In this document: positions 8,650 to 13,738 of the stretch, one piece after another
How the letters are laid out: every line of letters begins with the position of its first letter
How positions within the stretch are numbered: position 1 is the first letter of the stretch
Origin: an uncultured Lachnospiraceae bacterium
Lineage (GTDB): Bacteria > Bacillota > Clostridia > Lachnospirales > Lachnospiraceae
Assembly (NCBI GenBank): GCA_947178145.1
Contig: CAMWXE010000019.1
Coordinates: forward strand, 1-64,000
Direction of reading: 5' to 3'
Length of the DNA stretch: 64,000 bases
Made by a program: the position numbers and the translations under genes
Notes under the pieces: generated by a model
Database searches by the model: none
Seen by the model: only the letters and a program-made list of their open reading frames with translations
What the model was told of the DNA's origin: nothing

Positions 8650-9984
8650 TCATTCCCCCTTCGGATCATCCAAAATGCCAATAAACAATGGAAGTTCTCT
8701 GTCCATGTCCATTATCATGTAAAGAAATGGCTCGTCAAAGTAAAGTGCTCTTGGCTCGGATCCGAACATCACGCCGCCATCCCTCATATCAATCTCAGTC
8801 ACGGCAGCAGCTTCCGTTCCCTCCTCGTCCACAATGATTTTCGCCTTCTGCCTCACCAGGCTGATAAACAAATTCATGCCGCTCTGTGTCGTGCCCATCT
8901 GGCTAAAATCAGCCTTCACAGGATCAAAGCACTCTGTCAGTCCCATATCAAACAAATACTTGTTTAATTCCCTGTCAAATGTCACTTCAAATTTGGGAAG
9001 TTTTAGATGAACCCGTTCGTTTTGTCTGCTAAGGAGCATACTCCTGACGACTTCAACTGTCAATTTCCCGTACATCTCCCTGATATCGTCATTTCCTGTC
9101 GGTTTCAATGCGATCAATGCCATATTTACGCTTGTATCGCTATCGCTCTGGTAAGGCAGGATAACCCCTTCTGCAAATTCATTTGCGATGCAATCCAGAT
9201 TTGTCATATAGAGGTTCATCATATCAACTTGTTGCGCTGCGCTCCGTGCCCTGTCCGTGAAAAAATCTTCTGTATACGTATGCTCCGCCGCAAAAGGTGT
9301 CTCCCATTTTCCCTTGAAATACACGGCATCAAAAAGTACAAGCCTCGTCATGCTATCCACGGGACTTTCAATCATATTGTCAATCATGCCGTTTGTTTTG
9401 TCAAAAACCCACCTGTTCATACAGTTCATAGCCTCTTGTGTGGACAGATTCGTCTGAAAGGCCTCTGCGCCCATCAGGGATTTGATTGTGCCAAGCCATG
9501 CATCCTCCACGAGAAATTCATCGTCTATCCACGCAGAATTTGCTATCGATATCTTGAGTGTATCCCCGTTCTGTGGGAACGTGTTTGTCATATCATCCGA
9601 AAATACCTCCATATCCCCAAGCACATTGCCAAATTCGTCCAGTGTCGCGCCGTCCGCCCCGCAGCCTGCCATGGAAAGTGCCAGATAAGCCGATACTGGT
9701 GAGAGCACAGGATTCTTATCACCGATACTCTGTGCAAACAGCTCATATCCAAACTGCTGCACATCTTCATACGATGTAATAGAATAATCGATGCACACAC
9801 CCTGCGTTGTGTTTTCTGTCAGATTCTCCACAGATATTTGACTCTCCTTCTCCTCTGAAATAACTGCCTGATTTTGTTCTGTTATCTGCCAGTCAGGCCG
9901 CTCACTGTTTCTGCTGGCACAGCCGCTGAAAAGACAAGCAGCTGCGATAATTACGGATGTTGTTATCATACATTTTCGAGCCAT
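8650..9984 (-). CDS. Serpin family lipoprotein (first of a tandem pair)
   Basis: An about 444-residue serpin closely similar to the next gene, so a tandem duplication. The signal peptide ends LFSGC, a lipobox. Shared motifs are NPVLSPVSAYLALSMAGCGADG, DAVYFKGKWETPF, the hinge EEGTEAAAVTEI and PLFIGILDDP. The reactive loop differs from its neighbour (IDMRDGGVMFGSEP against VIMACGAAMVEPQEP), so the two should inhibit different proteases. The start at 9984 has AAGGAGGGATGCACT directly upstream; an in-frame ATG 75 bp further up is not supported. The anti-sigma gene ends 13 bp upstream. Confidence 0.9.
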   Translation of the reverse strand: MARKCMITTSVIIAAACLFSGCASRNSERPDWQITEQNQAVISEEKESQISVENLTENTTQGVCIDYSITSYEDVQQFGYELFAQSIGDKNPVLSPVSAYLALSMAGCGADGATLDEFGNVLGDMEVFSDDMTNTFPQNGDTLKISIANSAWIDDEFLVEDAWLGTIKSLMGAEAFQTNLSTQEAMNCMNRWVFDKTNGMIDNMIESPVDSMTRLVLFDAVYFKGKWETPFAAEHTYTEDFFTDRARSAAQQVDMMNLYMTNLDCIANEFAEGVILPYQSDSDTSVNMALIALKPTGNDDIREMYGKLTVEVVRSMLLSRQNERVHLKLPKFEVTFDRELNKYLFDMGLTECFDPVKADFSQMGTTQSGMNLFISLVRQKAKIIVDEEGTEAAAVTEIDMRDGGVMFGSEPRALYFDEPFLYMIMDMDRELPLFIGILDDPKGE

Positions 9985-9997
9985 AGTGCATCCCTCC

Positions 9998-10924
9998 TTA
10001 ATATTCATTGGCAAACCGGAATATATAGCCGTACTCCGGCGATGCCTGAAATGTATCAAACTCTATTTTTGTAAAAGTTCCTGTGAGCTGGAAATCTTCG
10101 GAAAGCTTCACGGCGTATCCAAGTTCTGCCAAACGTCTGTACTCCTGCTCGATTTTCACACTGCCAGTGTCCAACATATTCAACTGTTCATAATGAATCC
10201 CTCTGTCATCGTCTTTTTCAACGTCACCATAAAGGTCAATCACAACTTCATATGCATAAACGGGGCTGTCAGCAGTATCCAGTGCATTTTCCTGCGCTGT
10301 ATAATACGCTATCGTCTCCTGCAAATAATGAGAACAGAAATAGTCTCCCTTCCCGGGAACCGGATAATCGTAGACTGAATTGTCTTTTTCGCCATAATAG
10401 TCGCGAACGACTGTGTATGAAAGGCGTTCTGTCTCTGTTTCCACGATATCTCTTGATTGATCCTGCAGTTCACCAGTTGTTGCTGCGTAATCCTTGAAGG
10501 ACGCCGAAGCCTCCTCAGTACTTTGTTTGGTATCGGTATTGTCTGCCATAGCATCACTGCCTGCTGTCCCCTGACCGCCTGCCACCATATCGGTTTGTGT
10601 ATCCGATGCCATATTGTTTTCCGCTGGCATATTTTCTGTTGTGCTTCCTTCGCCGCCGCTGTCATTGGCTACTGTGGCATCCATTGCAATCGGAGATGCT
10701 GTATCGGCACCCGCATTTCCAGAATACTCCTCCTGGGCGTCCTGATGCAGCCAGAACGCAGATACTGAGATGCCAATCATGGCAATGCATGCCGCTGCCA
10801 CGCCCCATTTTCCGAATCGTTTCGTTTTATTTCTATACAGCACATTGGCTGGTGCTTCCAGCGCTTCTTGAATCAGTGCATCATCAATATACTCCATACA
10901 TTCCAGCAGATCTTTTCCTCTCAT
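9998..10924 (-). CDS. Membrane anti-sigma factor-like protein
   Basis: A 308-residue protein with an acidic cytoplasmic N-terminus (LLECMEYIDDALIQEALEA), one transmembrane helix (about residues 40-60, GVAAACIAMIGISVSAFWL) and an outside domain. The outside part starts with a long low-complexity Ala/Asp/Thr-rich linker (about 65-150) before a compact C-terminal domain with repeated YxYxVxxD-like strands. Its ATG overlaps the sigma stop codon (ATGA, 10921-10924), the usual coupling of sigma and anti-sigma. It would hold the sigma factor until an external signal releases it; the trigger is unknown. Confidence 0.75.
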   Translation of the reverse strand: MRGKDLLECMEYIDDALIQEALEAPANVLYRNKTKRFGKWGVAAACIAMIGISVSAFWLHQDAQEEYSGNAGADTASPIAMDATVANDSGGEGSTTENMPAENNMASDTQTDMVAGGQGTAGSDAMADNTDTKQSTEEASASFKDYAATTGELQDQSRDIVETETERLSYTVVRDYYGEKDNSVYDYPVPGKGDYFCSHYLQETIAYYTAQENALDTADSPVYAYEVVIDLYGDVEKDDDRGIHYEQLNMLDTGSVKIEQEYRRLAELGYAVKLSEDFQLTGTFTKIEFDTFQASPEYGYIFRFANEY

Positions 10925-11478
10925 AAATGAATGCCCTCCTTCTCCAGATGTTCACGCAGTTTCTTTCGCATGCGGAAAAGAATTGATTTCACTTTGCTCT
11001 CGCTAATCCGAAATGTGCCGGAAATATCTTTCACGGAATCCATATACCAATAGCGGCGCACAAACACCCTCCGCATCTCTGTCGGCTGCTGATACAAAAA
11101 TTCACTGATAATACGCCCAATCTCCTTACTGTCGAGCTTCTGCTCCAGATCGTCCGGCGAAGGGATGCAGTTCTCAATCTCGTCGCTCAGCTCCACGACC
11201 GTCACGCACCGTTTCTGCGCATGGTAGTAATCGTACTTTCCAAAGGAAAAATTACGCGTAAGTTTTGCAAGATATGCAAAAAAGAAATTTGGTCTCTCCG
11301 GCGGCAGTGTATTCCATGTAGCGTGGTATGTATCATTCACACACTCCTCCGCGTCCTGTCTGTCATGCAGAATATTCATTGACAGATTCTGGAGCCTCCC
11401 ACCGTATTTTCCATCCGTTTCTGTTATCGCCTGCTGTGAGCGCTTCCAGTATAATTCGATAATCTCGTTGTCCTCCAA
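10921..11478 (-). CDS. ECF-type RNA polymerase sigma factor
   Basis: About 185 residues. Region 2 is recognisable (LQNLSMNILHDRQDAEECVNDTY) and region 4 carries the helix-turn-helix (RRYWYMDSVKDISGTFRISESKVKSILFRMRKKL). The best start is TTG at 11478 behind AAAGGAGGACATCAC, giving the family-typical MEDNEIIELYWKRS; an ATG 45 bp upstream has no ribosome binding site. It heads the operon sigma, anti-sigma, serpin, serpin, and so probably controls serpin output. The 5' leader holds an inverted repeat ATTCCCT / AGGGAAT (11540-11565). A promoter of its own type could not be identified with confidence. Confidence 0.85.
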   Translation of the reverse strand: MEDNEIIELYWKRSQQAITETDGKYGGRLQNLSMNILHDRQDAEECVNDTYHATWNTLPPERPNFFFAYLAKLTRNFSFGKYDYYHAQKRCVTVVELSDEIENCIPSPDDLEQKLDSKEIGRIISEFLYQQPTEMRRVFVRRYWYMDSVKDISGTFRISESKVKSILFRMRKKLREHLEKEGIHL

Positions 11479-11658
11479 AGTGATGTCCTCCTTTGTTTCA
11501 TTTAGCGTATGGTTCACATACACTGTGGAACTGCGTGCAATTCCCTATACTTATTAAGAGGGAATCTGTAACGTATGGTTGCAGATTTCATATATTTATA
11601 TCATCATTATATATGCATAGACTCATTTTTTACAGAATTTTTTATTGCGCATTCCATT

Positions 11659-11687: not shown

Positions 11688-11751
11688 TATTATTTAGAGA
11701 ATACAGTCATATTACTGTATTCCCGCTAATATTTGTGAAAGGATGATAAAC

Positions 11752-12024
11752 ATGACACCTGAAGATAAGAAATTATTGGAACGAATCAATGACTATGCTG
11801 ACCGGGTGCTGAAAGATTTCGATCCGCAGAAAACACGCGTTTCATTTCAGTTGGAGAAGCTCAAACCGATCATGGAGGAAATCGCAAAAGAGACTGGGGC
11901 AACTGTGGAAGAAATTTTTATCAAATATATGGACCTGGCAAGTCAGGTCACTGTCAGCCGCGAGACGAAGTTTCAGAACACCATCGGAAACATGACCAAA
12001 TATGGTGATGTTCATGACGCTTAG
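11752..12024 (+). CDS. Hypothetical protein, 90 aa
   Basis: A charged, probably helical protein (MTPEDKKLLERINDYAD to KYGDVHDA) with no membrane segment. It is conserved-looking but I do not recognise the family. The ATG at 11752 has AAAGGATGATAAAC upstream; an in-frame ATG 9 bp earlier overlaps that site. It has its own strong promoter and a strong terminator, so it is monocistronic. It is the only plus-strand gene between 2.9 and 21.8 kb. Confidence 0.7.
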   Translation: MTPEDKKLLERINDYADRVLKDFDPQKTRVSFQLEKLKPIMEEIAKETGATVEEIFIKYMDLASQVTVSRETKFQNTIGNMTKYGDVHDA

Positions 12025-12068
12025 CAAGGAACTGTTAACAGTTACTAAGAATATCATTTAAGGCAACA

Positions 12069-12095
12069 AAAAAAGGATGTTATGCATCCTTTTTT
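12069..12095. terminator. Bidirectional rho-independent terminator
   Basis: AAAAAAGGATG / CATCCTTTTTT, an 11-bp perfect stem with a 5-base loop. It ends the 90-residue gene on the plus strand and the putative small RNA on the minus strand. Confidence 0.9.
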
Positions 12096-12302
12096 GAATG
12101 TTCCTTTTACACATTTTTCAACACGGTTCCTCTGTATCGTTTTCCTCTCACACACTTCCCCATACACATCATAACTTTCTATACAAACTTCCCCAAGTTT
12201 GCCTCCGAAAGCCTATCCCTTTTACACAAAAGACGTTCCGCTAAATCCCTCTATGGTACTTTATAAAAACCTTGTTTTCGAAATATGTAACGATGTTTCT
12301 AT
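12070..12302 (-). ncRNA. Putative GGA-rich small RNA, about 230 nt
   Basis: The minus strand from a perfect -35/-10 promoter (12309-12337) to the terminator at 12069-12095 has no plausible reading frame. The predicted RNA contains about ten GGA triplets, several in predicted loops: a perfect 7-bp hairpin CAAACTT-GGGG-AAGTTTG with GGA at the loop/stem edge, GCTT-TCGG-AGGC, and AATGT-GTAAAAGGA-ACATT. A nearby AUGGGGAAGU resembles the CsrA site (A-x-GGA-x-GU). Repeated GGA loops are the hallmark of CsrA/RsmA-sequestering RNAs in other phyla; applying that here is inference. It does not look like 6S, tmRNA, SRP RNA or RNase P. The ends are estimated from the promoter and terminator. Confidence 0.6.
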
Positions 12303-12308
12303 GTATAG

Positions 12309-12337
12309 ATTATTGCATATTTATTACGCATTGTCAA
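12309..12337 (-). promoter_or_regulatory. Promoter of the putative small RNA
   Basis: On the minus strand: TTGACA (12332-12337), 17-base spacer, AATAAT (12309-12314). There is no coding sequence downstream before the terminator. Confidence 0.75.
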
Positions 12338-12510
12338 CCTTTTTTTAAACTTTTCATTAATATATTGTTACATAAACGATGCAATTTTTATGTATTGCGC
12401 GTGCAGTTTTCACAAAGAACGCTGTTACTCTTTGGCTATACTTCTTCACCCAGCTTTTCTTTTGCATCTCCTCGAGCCAACAAGTGTAAGCATGCACAAA
12501 TATTGTGCGC

Positions 12511-12553
12511 AAAAAGCAGAACATGAATTCTTTAAGAACGCTGTTCTGCTTTT
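12511..12553 (-). terminator. Terminator of the leu-ilv-ser operon
   Basis: Inverted repeat AAAAAGCAGAACA / TGTTCTGCTTTT (12511-12523 and 12542-12553). On the minus strand the stem is followed by a T run. It lies 22 bp after the serA stop codon. Confidence 0.85.
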
Positions 12554-12574
12554 CTGGTTATTCTCAATATAGAA

Positions 12575-13738
12575 TTATTTCACAACACGCACCCGGAACA
12601 CGCCGTCAATCCCATTCAACTGCGCAATAATCCTGTCGTCAGCAGACTGTTCAATATCAATCATGGTATAGGCATATCCGCCCCTCGACTTGTTGGTCAT
12701 GTCGCTGATGTTGATACCTGCTGCACCAAAAGCAGCGGTAAACTGTGTGATCATGTTTGCAATATTCTTATGAAGAATTGCTACTCTTCCCACATTGCTG
12801 CACACACCCATGTCGCATGCCGGATAGTTTACACTGTTTCTGATATTACCGCTCTCAAGATAATCCTTGAGCTCATCCACTGCCATCACTGCACAGTTAT
12901 CTTCTGATTCCTCTGTGGAAGCTCCAAGATGCGGAATCACAATACATCCCTTCTGACCAGCTGTCGTCGGATTGGGGAAGTCCGAAACATACTTTCTGAC
13001 TTTTCCTGACTCGAGCGCAGAGAGCATATCCTTTTCATTGACAAGGAGATCGCGCGCAAAATTCAGCACTACGACACCCGGCTTCATCTTTGCGATGGCA
13101 GCAGCGTTGATCATCCCCTTTGTGGCATCCATAAGCGGTACATGGATTGTCACAAAATCACATTCTGCATAAATGTCATCGACATTGATGACATGCTTTA
13201 CCTCGCGGGAAAGCTTCAATGCCGCATCGACAGAGAGATAAGGGTCATATCCATAGACATCCATACCGAGGGCCACTGCCGCATTGGCCACCCTGATACC
13301 GATTGCCCCAAGACCGATGATGCCAAGCTTTTTGCCCTGTATTTCCGTACCAGCAAAGTTCTTCTTCTCCTTCTCGGCATCTTTGGCAATCGACTCCGCA
13401 CCAGTGTTGGCTTTCACCCAGTCAATGCCGCCTGTGATATCCCTCGATGCCAGCAGCATACCCGCAATCACAAGCTCCTTAACACCGTTTGCATTGGCAC
13501 CCGGCGTGTTAAATACGACAATCCCCTTATCTGCACACTTGTCAAGGGGGATATTGTTCACACCGGCTCCGGCTCTTGCAACAGCCAGAAGCGTCTCCGG
13601 CAGCTCCATCTCATGCATGGACGCACTTCTGACAAGCACCCCCTCCGCCTTTGCGATGTCATCCGTTGTCTGATAATTTTCTGTAAATCTTGACAATCCT
13701 ATATCGGAGATAGGATTCAGACATTTATACTGATACAT
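12575..13738 (-). CDS. serA: D-3-phosphoglycerate dehydrogenase
   Basis: 387 residues. Oxidises 3-phosphoglycerate to 3-phosphohydroxypyruvate with NAD+, the first step of serine synthesis. The NAD-binding motif GKKLGIIGLGAIGIRVANAA (about 134-153) and the catalytic His in IPHLGASTEESE are present. The C-terminal ACT domain (about 315-387) is likely the serine-feedback site. The ATG overlaps the serC stop by one base (TAATG), so the two are translated together. It is the last gene of the leuB-ilvD-ilvB-serC-serA run, followed by a strong terminator. Confidence 0.95.
   Translation of the reverse strand: MYQYKCLNPISDIGLSRFTENYQTTDDIAKAEGVLVRSASMHEMELPETLLAVARAGAGVNNIPLDKCADKGIVVFNTPGANANGVKELVIAGMLLASRDITGGIDWVKANTGAESIAKDAEKEKKNFAGTEIQGKKLGIIGLGAIGIRVANAAVALGMDVYGYDPYLSVDAALKLSREVKHVINVDDIYAECDFVTIHVPLMDATKGMINAAAIAKMKPGVVVLNFARDLLVNEKDMLSALESGKVRKYVSDFPNPTTAGQKGCIVIPHLGASTEESEDNCAVMAVDELKDYLESGNIRNSVNYPACDMGVCSNVGRVAILHKNIANMITQFTAAFGAAGINISDMTNKSRGGYAYTMIDIEQSADDRIIAQLNGIDGVFRVRVVK

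Follow-up and report, generated by a model that had tools for sequence, protein, structure and literature searches.

A repeat-array small RNA family in a Lachnospiraceae genus, a candidate decoy for CsrA beside FliW

The closest described counterparts of the RNA reported here are CsrB/CsrC and RsmX/Y/Z of gammaproteobacteria, and CAGGAUG/ANGGA hexaloops are the motifs of the CsrB/RsmZ sRNAs. CsrA-antagonist sRNAs have been described as chiefly gammaproteobacterial, and in one survey BarA-UvrY, of the CsrB pathway, and FliW are given as strongly anti-correlated, almost to mutual exclusion (PMC4682653). The established CsrA target of B. subtilis is the hag leader, and the source that names it described the joint action of FliW and an sRNA as undetermined in any species as of 2020 (PMC7652899); B. 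subtilis and C. difficile were named in 2026 as being without such sRNAs (PMC13407953). Among the matches listed in a literature search, in which subscription journals were thinly covered, no title or beginning of an abstract concerned an sRNA of Lachnospiraceae, or of other Firmicutes, that sequesters CsrA.

The RNA resembles CsrB/CsrC and RsmX/Y/Z in being a free-standing transcript with its own promoter and terminator, in carrying many GGA motifs in loops or single strands, in its variable length and in occurring in several copies in some genomes. It is unlike CsrB/RsmZ in that its unit is GUGUAAAAGG(G)A rather than the hexaloops named above, in having UUGGGG(G)A loops and no Rfam match, and in combining AAC-N3-GTT dyads at the promoter with a host that encodes FliW; the dyads also differ in sequence from the UvrY/GacA box of the BarA-UvrY Csr circuit. 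With the hag/flaA leader of B. subtilis and C. jejuni, which is both a CsrA target and a sponge, the RNA shares a GUAAAAGGA-type site and a CsrA-FliW host, but it is non-coding, has many sites and is unattached to flagellin. The TwoAYGGAY motif of Rfam, which has been reported in Clostridia, likewise holds GGA in terminal loops, but has another loop sequence and gave no covariance-model match here. The novelty is in the host, the design of unit and loop, and the promoter dyads; the principle is already known.

The locus and its conservation in the genus

In the window (the whole stretch of 64 000 nucleotides that was analysed, from an uncultured Lachnospiraceae bacterium), a gap of 550 bp at 12025-12574 separates a plus-strand ORF of 93 amino acids (11743-12024) from serA on the minus strand (12575-13738). 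The phosphoglycerate dehydrogenase-like product of serA found its best NCBIfam match in TIGR01327, under the curated cut-off of that model. The 93-amino-acid protein, whose gene converges on the sRNA, is conserved and of unassigned family, with no match in Pfam or NCBIfam; it is present in 32/38 genomes of the genus. Elsewhere in the window a serpin is encoded on the minus strand at 8650-10059 (PF00079, E 8e-77), near a sigma-factor-like gene at 10921-11523, with an ORF of 308 amino acids without a Pfam match between them.

The sRNA, of about 237 nt, occupies 12067-12303 on the minus strand, its start being placed from the -10 element and its end from the terminator. A sigma-70-type promoter, TTGACA-17-AATAAT with TG before the -10, was found by scanning at 12337-12309 and matches the consensus at 11 of 12 positions. 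The same scan returned six promoter-like sites in 2.5 kb against 5.9 in shuffled sequence, so that the promoter by itself is weak evidence; in the alignment of homologues TTGAC and AATAAT were retained in 15/15. The intrinsic terminator, AAAAAAGGATG-CATAA-CATCCTTTTTTT at about 12095-12067, was read by eye from the sequence and is absent from the output of the promoter and terminator scan; its stem is paired in the predicted fold. Between promoter and terminator there are exactly 10 GGA in 237 nt, compared with 6.3 in dinucleotide shuffles (p 0.028), an excess that is real but modest on its own. The list of open reading frames holds none of at least 40 amino acids on the same strand within the sRNA. 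A leader peptide seems unlikely, the candidate being a 21-codon in-frame ORF near the middle of the RNA, seen by eye, that is without a good ribosome site. The predicted fold is more stable than that of shuffled sequences (z -3.4). The sequence-only reading of this DNA had called the minus-strand promoter, a strong terminator downstream, about ten GGA and the lack of a coding frame, and these calls all stand.

Its further proposal of a free-standing RNA is strongly supported by comparison with relatives. A DNA search matched 18/60 genomes at E 0.01, including the source genome and one weak match outside the genus, and the aligned homologues have promoter, layout and terminator in common. With a sequence model built from the promoter together with the 5' module, 18 of the 38 genomes in the genus gave hits under E 1e-6, the many weak matches near the limit of E 0.1 being left out of the count; in G013 (E 6e-4) an array like that of the other carriers adjoins the gene for the 93-amino-acid protein, and the RNA is therefore counted in 19/38. 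Lachnospiraceae bacterium A4 and IMSAGC_011 are among the named members, and G023, G001, G029 and G020 have two copies each. In 20 genomes the locus examined shows serA convergent with the gene for the 93-amino-acid protein; the RNA lies between them in 12, where the genes are 438-763 nt apart, and is absent in eight (G032, G030, G025, G018, G008, G031, G026 and G035), where the distance is 36-239 nt. The difference amounts to a clean insertion or loss. The RNA is also downstream of serA in G002, G014 and G017, where the other gene is located elsewhere.

Outside the genus the searches gave little. The 5'-module model matched 22/299 genomes of the family at E 0.01 (own included), with only weak matches beyond the genus, and none of 21 other 5'-module loci scored for motif density had a clear array. 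A pattern search of genome contigs gave 13 loci, eight of them Lachnospiraceae loci adjoining serA and five without serA, which look unrelated. Two repeat-pattern screens matched 4/397 and 10/397 family genomes, and in both a reversed control matched more genomes, so no enrichment beyond the genus is evident from them; the RNA of the window itself fails both patterns, which could thus miss RNAs of its kind. The four loci of the smaller set were read as sequence, G258 alone having a clear array, while for the larger set matched stretches only were seen. In viral contigs 39 stretches matched the repeat pattern, some of which look by eye like coding repeats; the eight densest of the scored loci were inspected and no viral one had the sRNA layout. 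Plasmid and phage collections gave no match to the window RNA. With Rfam 15, nothing but a tRNA reached the gathering score in the window, and at a loose threshold seven weak matches in the sRNA region, all far under gathering, included none that was credible; this search with covariance models, which the sequence-only reading had suggested, matched no known RNA class. It is close to certain that the element is an sRNA, of a conserved family for which no description was found in the searches.

Array units, G-rich loops and promoter dyads

Twenty-three RNAs of the family were compared, and since they are related they are not independent. The loci behind sequences G060 and G061 are L026 and L027, and L051 and L045 contain identical stretches; G029b is truncated at a contig end, and the arrays of L019 and G258 were excluded from the counts. 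The RNAs, of 167-507 nt, share a 5' module followed by an array of variable length, which is built from two elements, GUGUAAAAGG(G)A units and hairpins with UUGGGG(G)A loops. GTAAARGG occurs 64 times in the 23 RNAs where 1.6 would be expected, and GTGTAA 76 times where 3.9 would be expected; GGA lies inside 56 of the 64 units and is lacking from eight. One copy in G029 carries eleven units, of which ten follow one another at intervals of 18-22 nt, and this eleven-unit stretch is single-stranded in the centroid fold. Across the family, core spacings of 13-25 nt account for 60/106, a raw count with no null. Of 109 G-runs that end in A, 46 are part of a hairpin with five pairs or more, compared with 13.6 (sd 3.3, maximum 25) in 500 flank shuffles. 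The loop of these hairpins is nearly constant and the stems are unrelated, as in AAGU-UGGGGG-ACUU and AAUAAGCUUU-GGGG-AAGGCUUAUU, and in G020, G023 and G013 the terminator loop itself is G-rich and of the same kind. In 21 of the 23 RNAs the predicted accessibility of GGA exceeds the mean over all positions. G-rich loops and GGA units recur in the relatives, where the sequence-only reading had asked for conserved GGA loops. The covariation that it proposed as a check was no higher than in shuffles: in the syntenic alignment two hand-named helices had 85.3% of cells paired against 84.2% when shuffled, and RNAalifold found no credible common fold for the 12 aligned sequences (-1.64 kcal/mol). The unit number varies too widely between arrays for a good alignment.

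The window RNA is a small member of the family, with two units and a pair of G-loop hairpins, one strong and one weak (all on the minus strand). Unit 1 (GUGUAAAAGGGA, 12227-12216) and unit 2 (GUGUAAAAGGAA, 12112-12101) come from the unit counts and an exact-match search. Between them, a hairpin of eight pairs, GCAAACUU-GGGG-AAGUUUGU at 12202-12183, was identified from the fold and the G-run hairpin test. These three are stronger than the word singled out earlier as resembling a CsrA site, AUGGGGAAGU at 12163-12154, which proved a poor site: a G-rich loop on a weak, mostly G-U stem (seven pairs, one of them Watson-Crick). Three of the 10 GGA are predicted to be mostly paired, and that of unit 1 is among the mostly paired positions (unpaired probability 0.15).

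Dyads of the form AAC-N3-GTT recur around the promoters. In the window, probable operators on the minus strand lie at about -242 (CAGAACAGCGTTCTT, 12547-12535, in the serA terminator region), at about -123 (GTAACAGCGTTCT, 12428-12416) and at about +6 (GAAACATCGTTAC, 12299-12287, which is also part of the transcribed 5' module). A degenerate dyad at about +27 (AAAACAAGGTTTT, 12278-12266) reads AAGAACNNNGTTCTT in several relatives. The 23 promoter regions hold 58 such dyads compared with 3.6 (sd 2.0) in shuffles, and the top count for any other spacing (0-2 or 4-8) is 16. Their positions are restricted: 50/58 fall within -155 to -115 (16), +3 to +7 (18) or +26 to +29 (16). At least one is present in 19/23 RNAs, the exceptions being G021, G022, G015 and G060. 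The operator profile was trained on words including those of the window, which makes its top ranks in the window circular in part. From these patterns we infer that a dimeric repressor or activator binds the dyads, which may resemble Xre/SinR sites (AAAGAAC/GTTCTTT).

An array was also seen at about 1460-1650 of L019 (G013:C121), where GUGUAAAAGGG/UUGGGGGA repeats lie in the 3' UTR of a 65-codon ORF with a weak, sub-threshold match to GnsAB_toxin. The usual 5' module is not in view, and this is an mRNA-borne version of the array.

CsrA, FliW and the flagellin leader

The sequence-only reading had linked the RNA to CsrA and suggested looking for csrA in the genome; a single csrA was found there, within a fliW-csrA-hag cluster in which hag starts downstream of csrA. 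FliW and the upstream flagellin-domain protein were called by Pfam and CsrA by NCBIfam, while other flagellar genes were named by eye. By plain residue count this CsrA has Asn55, the residue named as key for FliW binding (PMC13407953). The cluster, and the units common to the RNA and hag leaders, give the proposed link independent, partial support.

In the hag leader of the source genome, GGGUAAAAGGAUUUGCUC forms a hairpin with a predicted loop of AGGA inside A-U pairs; with the last pair open the loop is an AAGGAU hexaloop, and a second hairpin of the same kind follows. The first of the two, GGUAAAAGGAUUUGCUC, holds GUAAAAGGAU in its AAGGAU loop, and GUAAAAGGA is common to this site and the sRNA unit. 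The E. coli CsrA SELEX site is RUACARGGAUGU with an invariant ACA (PMC7652899); GUAAAAGGA matches eight of the nine bases of RUACARGGA, with AAA in place of ACA. The AAAGGA of the unit fits the C. jejuni CsrA motif (C/A)A(A/T)GGA, and the optimal distance between sites for dimeric CsrA has been put at 18 nt (PMC4894983). The UUGGGG(G)A loops do not conform, their GGA lying one position off the canonical CsrA hexaloop.

Hag leaders were collected from 30 loci among more than 100 flagellin matches, a start-codon filter leaving 27 distinct leaders (one from L035), and 94 control leaders came from the same loci. With a profile built from 97 sRNA sites, 19/27 hag leaders exceeded the 95th percentile of the controls. 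After clustering, 18 hag leaders scored above 66 controls (p 3e-6), and also above the 46 controls that contain GGA (p 1.3e-5). One of 60 column-permuted profiles equalled the real one, and of the score difference of 9.0 the permuted profiles on average retained 5.5; GGA richness therefore makes up much, not all, of the signal. Exact AAAAGGA occurs in 7/27 hag leaders and 0/94 controls (clustered 3/18 and 0/66, p 0.009); the exact 9-mer GTAAAAGGA was found in 2/27 and 0/94, which is not significant after clustering. Hag leaders of this kind occur in species without the RNA too, and the hag site is therefore independent of it.

The gene csrA is present in 35/38 genomes of the genus, in 17 of the 19 RNA carriers and in all but one of the 19 genomes where no RNA was detected; presence and absence therefore do not link the two, and a correlation of RNA and csrA inside the genus was set aside as uninformative, csrA being nearly universal there. 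The two carriers without a csrA match, G021 and G015, are both 86% complete, and G060, whose RNA is by eye nearly identical to that of G015, has csrA. As a separate observation, G016, G028, G019 and G026 gave five, seven, eight and four CsrA-family matches respectively and no confident sRNA match, several of the CsrA-family matches lying within about 1 kb of flagellin genes.

In G258, from another genus of the family, the paired-GTGTAAARGG screen found a similar GUGUAAAAGGGGA array at L100, in a gap between genes before a penicillin-binding-protein-like gene (named by eye). csrA is absent from G258, which is 100% complete, and from all nine genomes of its genus, five of them at least 90% complete. 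Either this array is unrelated or its binder is not CsrA there; it is possibly an unrelated repeat because reversed control patterns matched more genomes in both screens. At L100 (G258:C26, minus strand) the GUGUAAAAGGGGAAUUUAC array looks like alternating stem-loops and linkers. In G281, a csrA-positive genome of another genus, two GTGTAAARGG units lie at about 1435-1555 of L099, between a TTGACA promoter-like site and the start codon of a gene that by eye is ABC-transporter-like; these look like a CsrA-type leader target.

A candidate decoy and its alternatives

The units and G-rich loops are similar to the site in flagellin mRNA to which the cell's own CsrA is expected to bind, and for this reason the sRNA family is probably a CsrB/RsmZ-like decoy for CsrA, acting beside FliW. 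Under this proposal a dimeric DNA-binding regulator would switch transcription of the sRNA from the dyads, two just downstream of the start and one about 122 bp upstream. The AAAAGG(G)A sites of the sRNA would then hold several CsrA dimers, and this sequestration would free hag and other mRNAs from CsrA as translational repressor; FliW, a protein, would antagonize this CsrA as well. The variable array length and the two copies in four genomes fit a decoy. Evidence against it includes the similar array in a csrA-less genus, covariation not above shuffles and the non-canonical UUGGGGA loops.

The same observations bear on a decoy array for an RNA-binding protein other than CsrA that recognizes GUGUAAAAGG, UUGGGGA loops or both. 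The array in csrA-less G258, a constant core that extends 5' of GGA (GUGUAA), the eight units without GGA and the G-loop hairpins off the CsrA register all speak for such a protein; the occurrence of comparable units in hag leaders, which are the classic target of CsrA, and the possibility that the G258 array is an unrelated repeat speak against it, and we regard this account as rather unlikely. Constant G-rich loops on variable stems would also suit kissing with C-rich loops, and C-rich sRNAs are common in Firmicutes, so the array might be an antisense sponge whose GGGGA loops and units pair with the UCCCC loops of such an sRNA. However, an exact-match search of the source genome with the 12-base unit gave four matches on both strands (reversed control eight), of which two are the window RNA itself, one lies inside a long ORF and one is in a stretch that by eye is without sRNA features; a sponge of this type is improbable.

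Many sRNAs act by pairing, and the position downstream of serA on the same strand and the conserved 5' module could be those of an ordinary trans-acting sRNA or a serA 3' by-product that uses a single seed to pair with mRNAs and has its repeats only incidentally. That RNA would hardly be expected to have its own conserved promoter, dyads in most copies, repeats far above shuffles and copies away from serA, and we give it little credence. A non-functional spacer, with promoter, terminator and GGA present by chance, draws on the promoter and the GGA count, each near chance when taken alone, but promoter, array and terminator are conserved in 19/38 genomes and the gap of 438-763 nt in 12 carriers falls to 36-239 nt in the eight sister genomes without the RNA; this explanation is extremely unlikely.

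The chances are about even that one Gram-positive host antagonizes CsrA doubly, through FliW and through repeat-array decoy sRNAs whose arrays grow and shrink from species to species and are mostly governed by a regulator that binds the dyads; the four of 23 promoters without dyads weaken this view. A bolder reading is that the arrays may titrate another RNA-binding protein, also present in csrA-less Lachnospiraceae. The flagellins of gut commensals are a target of host immunity, and the family described here would place a candidate decoy in a gut bacterium of the kind thought to control CsrA by protein only. As the genus combines FliW, an Asn55 CsrA and a candidate decoy RNA, the question of whether FliW and an sRNA act jointly becomes directly testable in gut commensals.
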